From contig NZ_CP092473.1 of assembly GCF_014287515.2 (NCBI RefSeq), positions 3,925,001-3,959,994 of the forward strand: DNA of 34,994 nt, in the 5' to 3' direction. Made by a program: the position numbers and the translations under genes. Below are positions 10,676 to 34,238 of the stretch, in pieces. The stretch comes from Roseburia rectibacter (GTDB lineage Bacteria; Bacillota; Clostridia; Lachnospirales; Lachnospiraceae). Under the pieces are notes generated by a model. It saw only the letters and a list, made by a program, of their open reading frames with translations, ran no database searches and was not told the origin of the DNA. Every line of letters starts with the position of its first letter. The stretch's first letter is position 1.

Positions 10676-10764
10676 CTTAATCCCCATTCCTGTGCTTATC
10701 TTTGCTCATTCCAGTTTTTTAACAAACTTGTGTTTGAAAAATATTATTGTTTATCAACTACTGG

Positions 10765-10773
10765 ATTATATCA
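10765..10773 (-). promoter_or_regulatory. Extended -10 element, likely MATE promoter
   Basis: On the minus strand TGATATAAT, a perfect extended -10 (TGN-TATAAT), stands about 90 bases upstream of the MATE start. No good -35 is found at 16-18 bases, as is common with extended -10 promoters. An AT-rich inverted repeat (AATAGAAT...ATTCTATT, 10802-10831) lies just upstream. Confidence 0.5.
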
Positions 10774-10850
10774 TTTTTCCATAAAATATCATAGGGCAAA
10801 TAATAGAATGTCCATAACGTAATATTCTATTATTATGAATTACACGCAAA

Positions 10851-26531: not shown

Positions 26532-27212
26532 TTATATATTTTCCGTATATCTGCAGTCCGGGAAACCTGTGCATCCCCAGAATTCACCAAATCTTCCGTT
26601 TCTTTTTTTCAGGGTGCACCCGCACCGTGGACAGATTTTCATCTCTGTCTGTTTGTTTACGGTTCCTTTTAATTCCTCTGCCATAAGTTCAAATACCTGC
26701 TGATTCATCCGGCAGTCAGCGAGGGCACGGTGTGCCCCATTCGTAGAAATGCCATAATGTTCCGCCAGATCACCAAGCCGTCTGTGTTTCCACTCCGGGA
26801 AGCATTGCTTCGCAATCGCAAGAGTATCTATGTAATCATTCGTGAGTGTCTGTCCAAAATATTTTTCGCAGTCCCTGTACAAGAATTTCATATCAAAACT
26901 TGCAATATTGTGGCCTGCCAACACATCATCCCCAACAAATGCCAAAAATTCCGGTAAAACTTTTTCAAAGGTAAGCGCCTTTTCTACCATTTTATCGGAA
27001 ATATTATTTACTTTGCTTGCCGCATATGGGATATGTCTGCCTGGATTCACAAGTTCACTGAACTCGTCCACGATTTTTCCATTTCTGACTTTTACTGCGG
27101 AAATCTCTATAACCTCATCATAAAGGCTCGATATCCCCGTCGTTTCAAGATCATACAGCACATAATCCGGTACATATTCGTTCCGCTGCTTTCCCTTTTT
27201 CTTTCCTAACAT
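26532..27212 (-). CDS. DEDDh 3'-5' exonuclease with topoisomerase-type zinc finger
   Basis: 226 residues from ATG 27212; the recurrent leader CAGAATGGAG is 7 bases upstream. The DnaQ-like exonuclease domain (about 14-175) has ExoI LYDLETTGIS, ExoII AGHNIASFDMKFL and ExoIII GAHRALADC with the DEDDh histidine. A C-terminal C4 zinc finger (about 192-226: CPRCGCTLKKRNGRFGEFWG, then CTGFPDCRY) is of the kind found at the end of bacterial topoisomerase I and should bind single-stranded DNA. The fusion suggests a proofreading or repair exonuclease guided to single-stranded DNA. It is first in a small operon with two tiny genes. Confidence 0.9.
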   Translation of the reverse strand: MLGKKKGKQRNEYVPDYVLYDLETTGISSLYDEVIEISAVKVRNGKIVDEFSELVNPGRHIPYAASKVNNISDKMVEKALTFEKVLPEFLAFVGDDVLAGHNIASFDMKFLYRDCEKYFGQTLTNDYIDTLAIAKQCFPEWKHRRLGDLAEHYGISTNGAHRALADCRMNQQVFELMAEELKGTVNKQTEMKICPRCGCTLKKRNGRFGEFWGCTGFPDCRYTENI

Positions 27213-27309
27213 CAAAGTTCTCCATTCTGATGATATATATTTCTGCTGTCGTTTTTATCATCTAAAATAATATAAGTTAACCAACAAATGATGGTTTGTT
27301 TATGAAATA

Positions 27310-27596
27310 AATCGCCCGTCCAAATGGTGAGTCGCAGGTTTGTGAATGGCATCTTGCGCAAAGCCGGAGTTAATTTTGGTTCCGTTGTACGAAAAATAAG
27401 AAAAGTCTAGGTATGCCTGATTTAGGTTTTCTCAGAGTGACGTGACCGGCAACAACGAGTCATCCGTGGCAGAACATCACTGTGTGTAGACAGGCATACC
27501 AAGATTTTCTAATTTTCTCCCAAAGTCACAAAATTAGCTTCGGCTTTGCGCAAGATGCCAGCCTCCAGGTTATGAACACCATTGGGGCGGGCGGTT
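27310..27596 (-). repeat. Large inverted-repeat element A (probable structured RNA or hairpin element)
   Basis: The two ends pair over almost the whole length. The outer arms include CGCCCGTCC and AATGGTG with their complements. The inner arm GGCATCTTGCGCAAAGCCG (27348-27366) pairs perfectly with 27541-27559. The apical helix GTATGCCTG (27411-27419) pairs with 27491-27499. Between these helices lies an internal loop with conserved strands CTCCCAAAGTCAC and GTTCCGTTGTAC. Read on the minus strand it matches element B in order and in conserved loop sequence. No reading frame or transposase is present. It could be a non-coding RNA or a miniature mobile element. Confidence 0.75.
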
Positions 27597-27930
27597 CATC
27601 TCAGAATTGGGGGCGCGGGTGTGGATTATTGATATTCACACGAATAAAAATATGCTTAAATTTCTAATGTGCTGTATCATTAATATTTAGCCTGATGACT
27701 TTCCAAAATTTTCAGCTGCTGCATTGTATTACATGAAATTTTTCGTAAATTGCCAGACTAATAACGCAGAATATTTTTTCAAATGTGTATGGCAATAAAT
27801 ATGGGCATAACGGGATACGTTGAGGTTTTTCCAGTATTATCAAACCAATAATAATCTATTAAACATAGTTATTTGGAAATATTTTTTTAAACAGATTCAG
27901 ACACAAAACACTAAAAATTTACGCCCCAAA
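27597..27930. other. AT-rich spacer between the two hairpin elements
   Basis: 334 bases with no credible gene on either strand. A short AT-rich hairpin (GTGTG...CACAC, 27619-27641) lies at its left. As elements A and B face away from each other in conserved-strand orientation, this spacer may hold their divergent promoters, but no convincing -35/-10 pair was identified. Confidence 0.5.
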
Positions 27931-28271
27931 GGTTGTAAAATGAGTTCCCCGGCGAAGGGTGTTTCACAACTTAGTGGCTGGCAAATCGCATCAAGCCAGG
28001 ACTCGTTTTGTGACTTTGGGAGAAAATTAGAAAGTCTTTGTATGCCTGTTCACAATACAGTGTTGTGCTGCCATGGACGGCAGCACAAGTCTTAATGTGC
28101 CCGGATGGCACATTTAAGACGCACACGTCACTCCACCACAATATAAATCAGGCATACTTAGACTTTCTTATTTTCGGACAACGGAACAAAACAGTCCCGG
28201 CTTGATGCAATTTGCCAATCGTAACCCCCCAGAACCACCCTACACAGGGAAACTCGTATCACCCACAAACC
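27931..28271 (+). repeat. Large inverted-repeat element B (probable structured RNA or hairpin element)
   Basis: Same design as element A in the opposite direction. The inner arm at 27980-27997 pairs with 28199-28216 (GGCAAATCGCATCAAGCC with its complement, one G-T), using a sequence different from that in A. The apical helix GTATGCCTG (28040-28048) pairs with 28150-28158. The internal loop strands GTGACTTTGGGA and GGACAACGGAAC are as in A. The tip branches into two perfect or near-perfect hairpins, TTGTGCTGCC/GGCAGCACAA and GTCTTAATGTGCC/GGCACATTTAAGAC, enclosed by an AGTG/CACT stem. Long matches to A flank the apical helix on both sides. Confidence 0.78.
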
Positions 28272-28310: not shown

Positions 28311-28805
28311 TTAGCGTACATAATGTACTCTGTTTTCCTCATAGCGGTCTTCCTGCGGTCGCTCCTCCGCCGGATAGCCACATGGAACAAGCGCAAACGG
28401 ATTTAATCCGGAAGGTATACCAAGCACTTTTCTGACCGCCTCCATACGTCCTGCATCCGGTGAAATTCCCATCCATACAGCGCCAAGTCCCTGTGCATCT
28501 GCCTCTAACAACAGATTTTCAACTGCTGCACTTAAGTCAATGTTAAAATATTCTGGTGCGATTCCCTCCGACCGGAAGCATGGAACAAAGATAACCGGTG
28601 CCTCCGCTGCACATTTTGCATATGGTGATGCCTCTGAAAGTGCTTTTATGACATCCTGATTCGTTACCACATAAAACTCCCACGGCTGCTGATTGCATGC
28701 GGACGGTGCTGCCATCGCTGCCCTTAATAGTTTTTCGATCTTTTCCTGCTCTACATCCTTTGCCTGATATTTTCTCACACTGATTCTGTGAAATATACTG
28801 TTCAT
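28311..28805 (-). CDS. Nitroreductase family flavoprotein
   Basis: 164 residues from ATG 28805 (GGGAGG 7 bases upstream). The FMN-binding signature SVRKYQAKDVEQEKIEKLL and AAMAAPSACNQQPWEFYVV is present, and the second FMN-contact region is QGLGAVWMGISPD with GYPAEERPQ near the end. These enzymes reduce nitroaromatics, quinones or related compounds with NAD(P)H; the natural substrate is unknown. It starts 18 bases after the histidine phosphatase and is likely co-transcribed. The hairpin element B ends 40 bases beyond its stop codon. Confidence 0.92.
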   Translation of the reverse strand: MNSIFHRISVRKYQAKDVEQEKIEKLLRAAMAAPSACNQQPWEFYVVTNQDVIKALSEASPYAKCAAEAPVIFVPCFRSEGIAPEYFNIDLSAAVENLLLEADAQGLGAVWMGISPDAGRMEAVRKVLGIPSGLNPFALVPCGYPAEERPQEDRYEENRVHYVR

Positions 28806-28823
28806 TCTTATTCCTCCCATCCT

Positions 28824-29735: not shown

Positions 29736-30665
29736 CTACATCTCTTTCGTGGCTTTTTGTATTTCTTCCTCTGTAGCTTTCAAAAGTTTTCTTGCCTGTT
29801 CAACGGTTCCTCCGTTTTTAAGATAGTCTTTAATAATTCCAAGACGCCCCTCCGACTGTCCTTCTTTTCTACCCTCTTTGATGCCTTCTTCCAATCCTTC
29901 TTCCCTTGCTTCTTCCTTCCAGACCTTTACAGCTTCATCCATATTAAATTCTGTTGCAAACATACCCACTACCTCCGATCCCAAATAAGTTAACTGATCT
30001 GTAAGAACTCCTTCTTTGATGCATTCCCGCACTGCGATATCTATCGCCTCTTTCAATTCACTTCCATTTTTACATAAGTGCTTAATTTTATCAACAAAAT
30101 AACTGTATCCACTTAATAATTTTGTCTGCTGCAATAATTTAGAGTTCTTTCCGTAGTTAATATTATAGACTTTTACTTTCAGATCAATATTAACTTCCAC
30201 GCCTTCCGGGAACGCATCTGACAAGTGCATTTCCCAGTATTCTTTCTGATTACGGTCTCCATTGTAAAATACCACAAACTCCGGTGCATCCAGTTCTATC
30301 CGGCGTTCTTTGTATACGGCATTTGTTGTCATCATCTGATTGTATGTCCTACCCAGATACATCAGAAAACGCAGCGGCATATTTTCATTCAGTGTAGACT
30401 GATGTTCCGTCAAAACAATCACACGTTTTTTTCTGACGCGAAATGCCAGATCATTTTTCATCTGTCTTGTAAATACATCTTCAATGGTACAGTCTTCTAT
30501 CTCGCTTTCATCTGTCAGACAATCATCAAATAATGCATTATACAACTCCAGCATACCCGCTTTTTCTTTGAACAGATACCGGAAAAAAGTATCCTTATAC
30601 TTTGTATTGGCATACGTTTTGTCTGCAGCGTTACCTGCAGACACCCCATTCATATTTTCACTCAT
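29736..30665 (-). CDS. Rpn family PD-(D/E)XK nuclease / putative transposase
   Basis: 309 residues. The N-terminal domain (about 15-210) fits the Rpn/YhgA-like family: DTFFRYLFKEKAGMLELYNAL, then the nuclease core with NDLAFRVRKKRVIVLTEHQS (Asp and Glu-x-Gln positions) and MPLRFLMYLGRTYNQM. The C-terminal region is a charged helix with repeated EGxxEG units (EEGLEEGIKEGRKEGQSEG) ending in a short helical module. Rpn proteins in E. coli promote RecA-independent recombination through endonuclease activity; many copies in gut Firmicutes vary between strains. The ATG follows CAGGAG. Likely operon with the downstream zinc-ribbon gene. Confidence 0.87.
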   Translation of the reverse strand: MSENMNGVSAGNAADKTYANTKYKDTFFRYLFKEKAGMLELYNALFDDCLTDESEIEDCTIEDVFTRQMKNDLAFRVRKKRVIVLTEHQSTLNENMPLRFLMYLGRTYNQMMTTNAVYKERRIELDAPEFVVFYNGDRNQKEYWEMHLSDAFPEGVEVNIDLKVKVYNINYGKNSKLLQQTKLLSGYSYFVDKIKHLCKNGSELKEAIDIAVRECIKEGVLTDQLTYLGSEVVGMFATEFNMDEAVKVWKEEAREEGLEEGIKEGRKEGQSEGRLGIIKDYLKNGGTVEQARKLLKATEEEIQKATKEM

Positions 30666-32193: not shown

Positions 32194-33816
32194 TTACTGT
32201 AATAAGGAGAGTACACCCTGTGTAGACTGGTTCGCCTGTGCGAGCATAGACTGACCTGCCTGTGCAAGAATGTTGTTCTTGGAGTACTCAACCATCTCTT
32301 CTGCCATATCTGTATCGCGGATACGGGACTCTGCAGTCTGGGTATTCTCTGCTGCTGTATCCAGGTTGCTGATGGTGTGCTCCAGACGGTTCTGGATCGC
32401 ACCCATTTTACCACGCTGTGCAGAAACTTTCTTGATTGCTGCATCAATCGTGGTAGTAGCTTTCTGGGCACCGGACTGTGTGCTTAAGTCTACTTTGTTG
32501 CCATCTACGCCAAGTGCTCTTGCACTCATGTCATCGATAGAGAAACTCATGGTCTGACCTTCATTTGCACCAATCTGCAAGGTAATGCCAGCACCAGAAG
32601 ATACACTGTCATAACCAGCCTGCCCCCACATAGCATCTGTACTTCCAAGACCAGCTCCGGCGGTATCACCCATTGTAATATCGCTCACCGATGATGCGCC
32701 ACTGGTTGCAAATAAAGTATTTGGCTCATCTGGTGTATTTCCACTTAATTTAACATCAAAGTCGAATCCTGCCGTTTTAAGAATATCCTCTAAATCTTCT
32801 GCCGTATATTCTTTGCCTGCTGCAAGATGAATTGTATACTGACCTTCTGTTACCGTATTGGTTCCACTGATTTCAATTGCTGTATTTGTCTCTACTTCTT
32901 CTTTGCCTGCCGCCTTATCGAATGCGAATTTAAACACAGTATTATTGAACTCTGTTCCATACTTATTTGCCGTAAATGAAATTGTATCTGCTCCAACAAA
33001 TCCCGTTACAGTTCCATCATCAGATACTGCCTTCACACCACCGACTGTTGCAGTTCCGGCAGTTGTGTCTGCATCTGCATTAAAAATACCATTCTTTAAA
33101 GATACTTTCACTTCAGCCGGTGCGCCAGTTGCGGTACTGTCTTCCTGTTTTGCATTTGCGATCAAGTCATCAATTTCGTCCTGTGTATATACCTTATTTT
33201 TCGAAAGATTTAAAGTTAATGTCTTTCCATCAGCAGCCCAGATAGCAGTCTCCTGACCTGCCTTTGTTGTTGTGGAAGCTGCTGTTGCTACTTTAATACC
33301 TTTCACGTTAGATGTTACAAGTGCACCGTCTAATGTTGCATCTACAACACCAAACTTCGGACCTGACCCGGTTGAAGATGTACTTCCACTCTGGGAACCA
33401 TCCAACAGCTTCATCGTATTGAACTCTGTTGTCTCAGAAATTCTTGTCAGTTCTTCCTGTAACTGGGAAATCTCGTTCTGTACTGCCTCGCGGTCGTCAT
33501 CTGTCTCTGTACCGTTGGAAGCCTGTACGGATAACTCTCTCATTCTCTGTAAGATGGAGTGTGATTCGTTTAATGCGCCCTCAGCGGTCTGGATCAGAGA
33601 GATACCATCCTGTGCGTTGTCAGATGCTTTGTTTAAGCCACGGATCTGGCTTCTCATTTTCTCAGAAATAGAAAGTCCTGCTGCGTCATCTGCTGCACGG
33701 TTGATCTTGTAACCGGAAGATAACTTCTCAGATGATTTTGCCTGCATTCCTGTTGTAACGCCTAAATTTCTGTTCGCATTCATTGCGGACATGTTGTGCT
33801 GTACTACCATTGCCAT
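32194..33816 (-). CDS. Flagellin
   Basis: 540 residues from ATG 33816 (GGAGG 8 bases upstream). The N-terminal D0/D1 region (about 1-165) is highly conserved: [36 protein letters not shown] and [16 protein letters not shown] variable surface region (about 166-430) is rich in Thr, Ala, Asp and Gly. The C-terminal D1/D0 region (about 445-540) ends [16 protein letters not shown] and [14 protein letters not shown]90-V97 (QRMRELSV) corresponds to the segment of D1 read by TLR5. It polymerises into the flagellar filament after export and may be methylated by the downstream FliB. The leader carries CsrA-type sites. The long variable domain may also explain antigenic differences between strains. Confidence 0.97.
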
Positions 33817-33821
33817 AATAT

Positions 33822-33880
33822 TTACCTCCGTGTGATAAAAATGTGTTCTGCCGTTACCCGGCATCCGGGAATCCTTTCCC
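33822..33880 (-). promoter_or_regulatory. CsrA-type target sites in the flagellin leader
   Basis: Minus strand: GGGAAAGGATTCCC (33867-33880) forms a five-base-pair hairpin that shows AGGA in its loop, the classical high-affinity CsrA site. About 40 bases later ACACGGAGGT (33825-33834 region) fits the CsrA consensus and contains the ribosome binding site. Two sites, one far and one on the Shine-Dalgarno, is the arrangement by which CsrA blocks hag translation in Bacillus. A CsrA-like gene is next door. Confidence 0.7.
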
Positions 33881-33892
33881 TTTTTTTCCGTG

Positions 33893-33919
33893 ATATGCGG
33901 AAATTTTTCTTGATTTTTA
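33893..33919 (-). promoter_or_regulatory. Possible sigma-28 promoter of flagellin
   Basis: Minus strand: TAAA (33916-33919), 15 bases, CCGCATAT (33893-33900), compared with the flagellar consensus TAAA-N15-GCCGATAA. The -10 differs by what looks like one extra base. It would start the transcript near 33886, just before the CsrA hairpin. Confidence 0.4.
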
Positions 33920-33937
33920 AGACATACGTCTTAAAAA
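33914..33937. repeat. Inverted repeat between csrA-like gene and flagellin
   Basis: Perfect 10-base arms TTTTTAAGAC and GTCTTAAAAA around 4 bases. It overlaps the possible -35 of the flagellin promoter. It may be a weak terminator for the csrA-like gene or an operator; the sequence alone does not decide. Confidence 0.55.
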
Positions 33938-33977
33938 GATTTATAATAAGCCCGACCCCTAGGTTAGCCTGACCTTA

Positions 33978-34238
33978 TTACCTTGCTTCTTCTGATCTGC
34001 TGTGGCGCTCCCTCATCAGAATTGCAGCAATCTCTTTCTGTGCCTGTTCCGAAATGCCCTGTTCCTTATAGTAGTGAGTGCGGTTGCTTTTTCTTTCTGC
34101 AGAACTACGCGCAATATTCATCTCTCTCGGCGCATCCACCAGAAGATGAATGTTATTTGCAGAACCGCCGGAAAAAACGACCCTGATGTTTTCACCGATG
34201 TCAATATAGTCACCGGGCTTTAACGTTAACTTGAGCAT
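33978..34238 (-). CDS. csrA: Divergent CsrA-like RNA-binding regulator with C-terminal extension
   Basis: 86 residues. The first 50 follow CsrA closely (MLKLTLKPGDYIDIGENIRV then VDAPREMNIARSSAERK), including the Arg in the APxExxxxR segment that contacts RNA. The normally basic R6 position is Leu here, and the C-terminus carries an extra 30-residue basic helix (EQAQKEIAAILMRERHSRSEEAR) beyond the usual end. It should bind GGA motifs, most likely those in the flagellin leader beginning 100 bases downstream. GGAGG stands 12 bases before the ATG, a long gap. FliW, the usual CsrA antagonist, is not in this window. Confidence 0.78.
   Translation of the reverse strand: MLKLTLKPGDYIDIGENIRVVFSGGSANNIHLLVDAPREMNIARSSAERKSNRTHYYKEQGISEQAQKEIAAILMRERHSRSEEAR

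Follow-up and report, generated by a model that had tools for sequence, protein, structure and literature searches.

TwoAYGGAY as a dispersed, pair-forming palindromic repeat of Clostridia with CsrB-type loops

Two large palindromes in a 34,994-nt stretch of Roseburia rectibacter DNA (contig NZ_CP092473.1; hereafter the window) are members of the known RNA family TwoAYGGAY, which in Lachnospiraceae and other Clostridia takes the form of a non-autonomous palindrome, about 300 nt long, dispersed through intergenic DNA; a composite of two such copies spans roughly 650-1000 bp. Copies are scattered through genomes, occupy different sites in sister species, lie at some common sites in opposite orientations, recur as head-to-head pairs, and combine outer arms private to each copy with a core that changes more slowly. 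The reading we favour, to which we give a little less than an even chance, is that the palindrome is a mobile repeat and that its conserved strand would be a CsrB-like RNA able to titrate CsrA. Under such a scheme the conserved strand would be transcribed, the arms would hold the RNA as a rod, and the rod would present one or two GGA-loop hairpins able to titrate CsrA in the manner of CsrB and RsmZ, with effects on targets such as a flagellin leader.

Results

The elements had been picked out in a first-pass annotation, made from sequence alone, as a pair of structured hairpins of an unrecognised, perhaps undescribed family. A search of Rfam 15 overturned the last part of this description, since both elements match RF01731 (TwoAYGGAY), with 63.6 and 132 bits respectively against a gathering cut-off of 43 bits, an outcome that the annotation had itself named as refuting. 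In element A (27310-27596, minus strand) the RF01731 core lies at 27384-27524 on the minus strand and the second hairpin is absent; in element B (27931-28271, plus strand) the core lies at 28015-28182 on the plus strand and covers model positions 1-168. A covariance search of the whole window returned B with E = 4.7e-24 and A with E = 1.6e-8. One other match in the window, to MIR2646, scored 43.9 bits against its own cut-off of 245 and was taken as chance.

The remainder of the description held up. Sequence, folding and inverted-repeat analysis agree on the positions and strands of the two elements, each a TwoAYGGAY copy with outer palindromic arms, and a mechanical search recovered the block common to both as an inverted repeat of 92 nt (27485-27576 and 27963-28054; 78% complementary). 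As had been noted, the outer helices have different sequences in A and B yet pair with themselves: an inverted-repeat search found the two arms of A (27347-27378 and 27529-27560) to be 94% complementary, and those of B (27979-28008 and 28188-28217) to be 87% complementary. B ends in two extra hairpins on the plus strand. The first (28063-28088) has the loop ATGGAC at 28073-28078, which fits the AYGGAY motif, whereas the second (28089-28120) carries CCGGAT, with GGA at 28103-28105, and deviates from the motif in its opening base. The tip of A is shorter and has lost the second hairpin, leaving ACGGAT (27462-27467, minus strand; located by sequence and Rfam alignment) as its single AYGGAY motif. 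From end to end the palindromes measure 287 nt (A) and 341 nt (B).

A and B stand head-to-head, separated by an AT-rich spacer of 334 nt (27597-27930; 31% GC). A is flanked by an exonuclease gene (26532-27215) and B by a nitroreductase gene (28311-28820); both are on the minus strand, so that transcription running through the intergenic DNA would read A in the sense and B in the antisense direction. No match to phage sequences was found, and only two of the 37 genomes in the genus of Eubacterium sp. MSJ-21 (G001), which we used for comparison, contain any match to the window DNA, in each case short. Elsewhere in the window, a gene for a YhgA-like protein (29736-30665, minus; PF04754, slightly under the cut-off) has repetitive C-terminal stretches.

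Rfam places TwoAYGGAY in clan CL00106, the clan that also holds CsrB (as seen in a scan of the E. coli csrB region), and gives RF01731 the type label 'Cis-reg'. In the available text of Weinberg et al. 2010 (PMC2864571) TwoAYGGAY is reported from the human gut, gamma-Proteobacteria and Clostridiales, and is judged probably to be an RNA and probably not cis-regulatory. The available portions of later papers propose that it binds CsrA (PMC4333381) or use it as a structural example (PMC7657543, PMC11661157, PMC11701678). To the extent that the text of the literature searched was available, it held no description of TwoAYGGAY as a repeat that is mobile or dispersed, and none of private arms or head-to-head pairing. 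Judged against that body of text, A and B are an ordinary pair of members of a known family, and what appears to be fresh is the view of the family as a turning-over, pair-forming palindromic repeat with CsrB-type loops.

Covariance searches of relatives revealed how widely the repeat is dispersed. In G001 there are 35 TwoAYGGAY matches, 32 of them above the cut-off; across its genus 20 of 37 genomes are carriers, with 1 to 35 matches each. Two other genomes, G407 and G423, hold 27 and 25 copies. Within a sample of the family, 65 of 397 genomes carry the repeat (63 above the cut-off), as do 36 of 391 in a sample of the class (27 above the cut-off); since no more than 6 or 7 candidates per genome were scored in these two samples, copy numbers there are lower bounds. 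The repeat has also reached a plasmid, the 243-kb replicon of Roseburia sp. 831b, which bears four copies above the cut-off and was the sole record matched when plasmids were searched with B (75% identity over 60%). One of the plasmid copies stands between a cobalamin riboswitch and the next downstream open reading frame, and a plasmid copy inside an operon lies between the gene for histidinol-phosphate transaminase and cbiB. Over the 57 copies of G001 and G423 the whole palindrome has a median length of 316 nt, about twice that of the Rfam model. Nine loci found by way of the exonuclease gene had no Rfam match above the cut-off.

G001 and G423 are sister species whose aligned flanks are mostly more than 85% identical. 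A full match is present in both genomes at 12 sites. Three weak G001 matches under the cut-off (L057-L059), which were excluded from the arm tests described below, fall at the sites of the G423 copies 2580611, 1332770 and 2022178; if they are counted, the common sites number 15. At 3 of the 12 sites the orientation relative to the flanking genes is opposite in the two species (L020/g552459, L050/g2406112 and L049/g146315). For L020 a segment of 301 nt (94.7% identical) and for L050 one of 275 nt (97.5%) align in reverse, and the outer flanks give no alignment that way round, which makes both cases inversions; L049 could be an independent insertion. At L025/g1130744 and L053/g850107 the flanks differ by 9.1% and 9.8% and the arms by 30.5% and 37.0%, so that the copy has probably been replaced; treating these as true orthologues with compensatory evolution was rejected, since arm divergence lies far above flank divergence.

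We examined by eye 11 sites at which G001 and G423 differ. Six of these are filled in the other genome by a second kind of hairpin repeat and one by a different simple hairpin; three have no comparable hairpin there, and in one a nested insert splits the core. No clean direct target duplication was noticed in these site comparisons. Dispersed copies, differences in occupancy and opposite orientations at some common sites in relatives all lend support to the first-pass suggestion of something like a miniature mobile element.

The second hairpin repeat, with ends of the form GCAGACC...GCGTCTGC, fills sites at which the sister species carries TwoAYGGAY. It was recognised by eye at L170 (approximately 10700-10830) and also at L166, L158, L169, L174 and L176; the L170 example, when tested, gave one Rfam match, far under the cut-off. 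At L058 (G001 contig C5, near 154130) the TwoAYGGAY core is broken by another palindromic insert in the hairpin region.

Neighbouring copies adopt a consistent arrangement. Among the matches listed (153 in 20 genomes), all 12 pairs of neighbours no more than 1.2 kb apart stand head-to-head (minus-plus). Inspection of the family and class samples by eye added five minus-plus pairs within 1.2 kb (two in G017 and one each in G374, G394 and G613) and a single plus-plus pair, in G656, 301 bp apart with both matches under the cut-off. Moreover, composite units recur within G421, within G416, and between G421 and G419, as 655-753 aligned bp of 80-88% identity; A and B in the window share their head-to-head arrangement, with a longer spacer. 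At four composites (L138, L140, L142 and L145) the ends bear, by eye, an extra palindrome of about 20 bp, resembling ...GGAAGTT / AACTTCC and differing by site.

Several candidates for a mover were considered. Open reading frames in the wide gaps between paired copies at L151 and L186 are unlike a transposase gene, as judged by eye from their translations. The Y1 transposase domain (PF01797) occurs in 8 of the 37 genus genomes and gave no match in G423 or G407, in spite of their 25 and 27 copies, and full-length IS110 (PF01548) gave no match in G423. Of these two families, the only ones searched, neither can be a required mover.

To ask how private the arms are, we scored local complementarity over the 110 nt that flank the Rfam core on either side, comparing a copy's own two arms with arms from different copies. 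For six copies (A, B and four from Roseburia) the own-arm score averaged 56.5 against 20.2 between copies, with the own partner ranking first for 5 of the 6 (A scored 61 and B 49; no score between copies exceeded 49). The same pattern was found in G001 (mean 60.3 against 17.9; own partner best for 30 of 32) and in G423 (57.5 against 18.2; 23 of 25). In the subfamily made up of the window and Roseburia copies, two-sided changes are seen at 43 of the 66 base pairs that lie beyond the Rfam model, with 81.2% of cells paired, the outermost 30 pairs being the weaker ones; the count comes from five sequences (Ros2 was left out) and a structure predicted from the same alignment. Such changes look like selection on the predicted pairing.

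Comparison of the sister species gave a different picture. For a test of rates we used six cleanly shared sites (L015, L033, L041, L043, L046 and L048p), excluding L025 and L053 as probable replacements, L020 and L050 because their orientation is opposite in the two species, and L031 because its left arm is not common to both. In the arms at these sites 11 of 41 single changes keep the pair; this is 27%, where G-C and A-U pairs would lead one to expect 33% (p = 0.51). Compensated double changes are absent, small as these numbers are. When the five excluded sites are counted in (11 sites in all), 620 of 795 pairs are unchanged, 45 have single changes that keep the pair and 94 changes that break it; of the double changes 23 are compensated, 18 of them in L025 and L053, and 13 are uncompensated. 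Over the six sites, the part of the core that lies outside the two hairpins has changed at a lower rate than the arms (11/672 against 37/777 positions, p = 0.001), and so has the hairpin block (7/327 against 37/777, p = 0.04). A slow core together with arms that show no preference for pairing indicates that the core is constrained, whereas the arms appear to acquire their pairing at the origin of a copy. The arms thus seem to come with the copy, and the claim that changed but still paired arms are a sign of selection finds no support on the time scale that these few changes can test.

How, then, might each copy acquire its arms? One possibility, which we consider unlikely, is that TwoAYGGAY is a mobile RNA element that binds CsrA and makes its outer stem afresh, from inverted flanking DNA, at each new site. 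Flanking DNA would be copied in inverted form upon insertion, or later by fold-back DNA synthesis, and each copy would in this way gain private self-complementary arms without any selection on base pairs. Arms that pair with themselves but are unrelated from copy to copy, and the lack of any preference for pairing among the changes at the six sites, point this way. The paralogues L020 and L027 have inner arms that are 96% alike, and in their outermost 16 bp four positions have changed on the two arms at once, apart from a single stray mismatch in L020. In G001 the near-empty site 2822785 has, by eye, only one of the two arms seen in G423; this too would fit target-derived arms, although deletion of one arm could mimic it. 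That the arms are wholly copied from host flank can be rejected: a weak end motif like AATTGCGAAAC recurs across copies (by eye) and inner arms are common within subgroups, so that much of the arm is inherited and only its outermost stretch is open to an origin in the flank.

A possible protein partner for the loops is encoded in the window itself, by a csrA gene at 33978-34238 on the minus strand (PF02599, E 1e-15). It adjoins a flagellin gene (32194-33816, minus; the start at 33816 was judged from the leader, the mechanical open reading frame beginning at 33864). The flagellin leader (33780-33985, minus) contains CACGGA and, just ahead of its start codon, CACACGGAGG; these are GGA motifs of the kind expected of a candidate CsrA target. 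CsrA has been reported at flagellar loci of Roseburia and Eubacterium, according to the available text of PMC3720852. On the other side, csrA is adjoined divergently by a gene for a tyrosine recombinase of the phage integrase family (PF00589; 34314-34922, plus).

GGA-loop hairpins were found to be a property of one strand. Among 58 loci (up to two per genome, with two from G423; 16 of 74 loci, being shorter than 3000 bases, were left out), the conserved strand has such hairpins in 54, with two or more in 32, and the other strand in 6, while simple shuffles give them in 13.6%. This asymmetry, together with the clan shared with CsrB, supports the first-pass reading of a structured non-coding RNA. 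At least one GGA hairpin is present in 28 of 32 G001 copies and 20 of 25 G423 copies, and two in only 3 and 1 respectively. By the rule used in our script, B in the window has two GGA-loop hairpins and A none.

The presence of csrA follows that of the repeat at a broad scale. Leaving descent uncorrected, 62 of 65 genomes with the repeat have csrA in the family sample, against 148 of 332 that lack the repeat (Fisher p 4e-16), and it is likewise found in 25 of 30 carriers and 11 of 50 non-carriers in the class sample (p 1e-7). These last 80 genomes are those lying outside the family sample and may include members of the same family, and the 50 non-carriers were hand-picked (47 roughly evenly spaced, plus 3 listed ones). 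Within the genus no association was seen (18 of 20 carriers, 15 of 17 non-carriers). Flagellin is associated with the repeat no less closely than csrA (27 of 30 carriers against 15 of 49 non-carriers, descent again uncorrected), so that what truly covaries with the repeat may be motility, lineage or the completeness of assemblies. Nor is the family confined to genomes with csrA: G423, a single contig of 2.9 Mb with 25 copies, gave no match to csrA and none to flagellin, and of the 3.1 kb around the csrA of its sister genome only two short repeat-like matches are found there.

Discussion

The orientation of copies relative to their neighbours bears on whether the RNA might act in cis on adjacent genes, as its Rfam type would imply. 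Copies such as the one between the histidinol-phosphate transaminase gene and cbiB do lie inside operons, and at co-directional sites G001 has 16 copies in the sense and 3 in the antisense direction, as G423 has 14 and 5. Among the 58 loci, however, most of them from other genomes, the balance is 12 sense to 25 antisense, on the Roseburia plasmid one copy is sense and three are antisense to the adjacent genes, A and B face opposite ways, and orientation is reversed at 3 of 12 sites in the sister species. With no orientation kept relative to neighbouring genes, a role in cis is disfavoured, in keeping with the judgement in the available text of Weinberg et al. (PMC2864571), and we regard it as highly improbable. 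It is also improbable, if less so, that A and B are simply a divergent pair of genes for trans-acting sRNAs of the CsrB/RsmZ type, with promoters in the spacer and other copies being old duplicates. The exclusively head-to-head arrangement of close pairs among the matches listed (12/12), the AT-rich spacer and the GGA hairpins are what this would predict, but the composites are dispersed as well, and signals for transcription did not stand out. Between 27100 and 28500 there are 5 promoter-like sites against 3.5 in shuffles (sd 1.5), not above chance, and no terminator-like site was found; in relatives a promoter-like site lies upstream of 29 of 56 loci, compared with 25 when the reverse strand is read and 20 at the 3' side, without clear enrichment. 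On these counts we rejected an upstream promoter signature.

A more serious contender, which we nevertheless hold to be rather doubtful, is a palindrome that is mobile purely at the level of DNA, like a MITE. Its fold would then matter while the DNA is single-stranded during transfer, transcripts would be incidental, and the link to csrA would do no more than mark motile lineages. The differences in occupancy and orientation between sister species and the variable orientation to neighbouring genes (16:3, 14:5 and 12:25) would be natural for such an element, as would the 25 copies kept by G423 without a csrA match and the equal tracking of flagellin. It sits less well with the preservation of loop motifs on one strand only, with stems changed on both sides at 43 of 66 pairs (from five sequences and a structure drawn from the same alignment), and with the lack of a transposase family tied to TwoAYGGAY in the searches for Y1 and IS110. 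We retain, tentatively, the reading in which a mobile repeat yields a CsrA-titrating RNA.

Since 2010 TwoAYGGAY has been a catalogue entry without a function. Regarding it as a dispersed repeat that turns over, rather than as a fixed gene or leader, changes which experiments are sensible. The correlation with csrA and its sharp exception in G423 make the CsrA-sponge proposal, attributed to Gardner and colleagues, directly testable in gut commensals, with G423 (25 copies, no csrA or flagellin match) as a natural test case. The arms also carry a caution: well-paired arms of diverse sequence, the usual sign of selection on RNA, can come with the copy, without selection to preserve base pairs.

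Among known systems, RF01731 itself is the closest, as A and B share its core sequence and fold above the gathering score; the Rfam model, however, has only 168 positions, and the palindromes extend to 287 and 341 nt. CsrB and RsmZ (RF00018, CL00106) are alike in their GGA-loop hairpins, and csrA is usually present in genomes that carry TwoAYGGAY. CsrB gathers many CsrA sites within one gene, whereas TwoAYGGAY has one or two sites per copy and up to 35 dispersed matches, and one genome, G423, has copies without a csrA match. REP/BIME palindromes are likewise dispersed, intergenic and often in inverted pairs, and are mobilised by RAYT (Y1) transposases; TwoAYGGAY is much longer, has a branched core, and occurs in G423 and G407 with no Y1 match. 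Finally, NEMIS/Correia and ERIC are MITE-like bacterial repeats that, in common with TwoAYGGAY, are non-coding, dispersed, palindromic and variable in occupancy. TwoAYGGAY differs from them in that no clean target duplication was noticed by eye and in that its terminal arms, in place of a fixed common sequence, are private to each copy.
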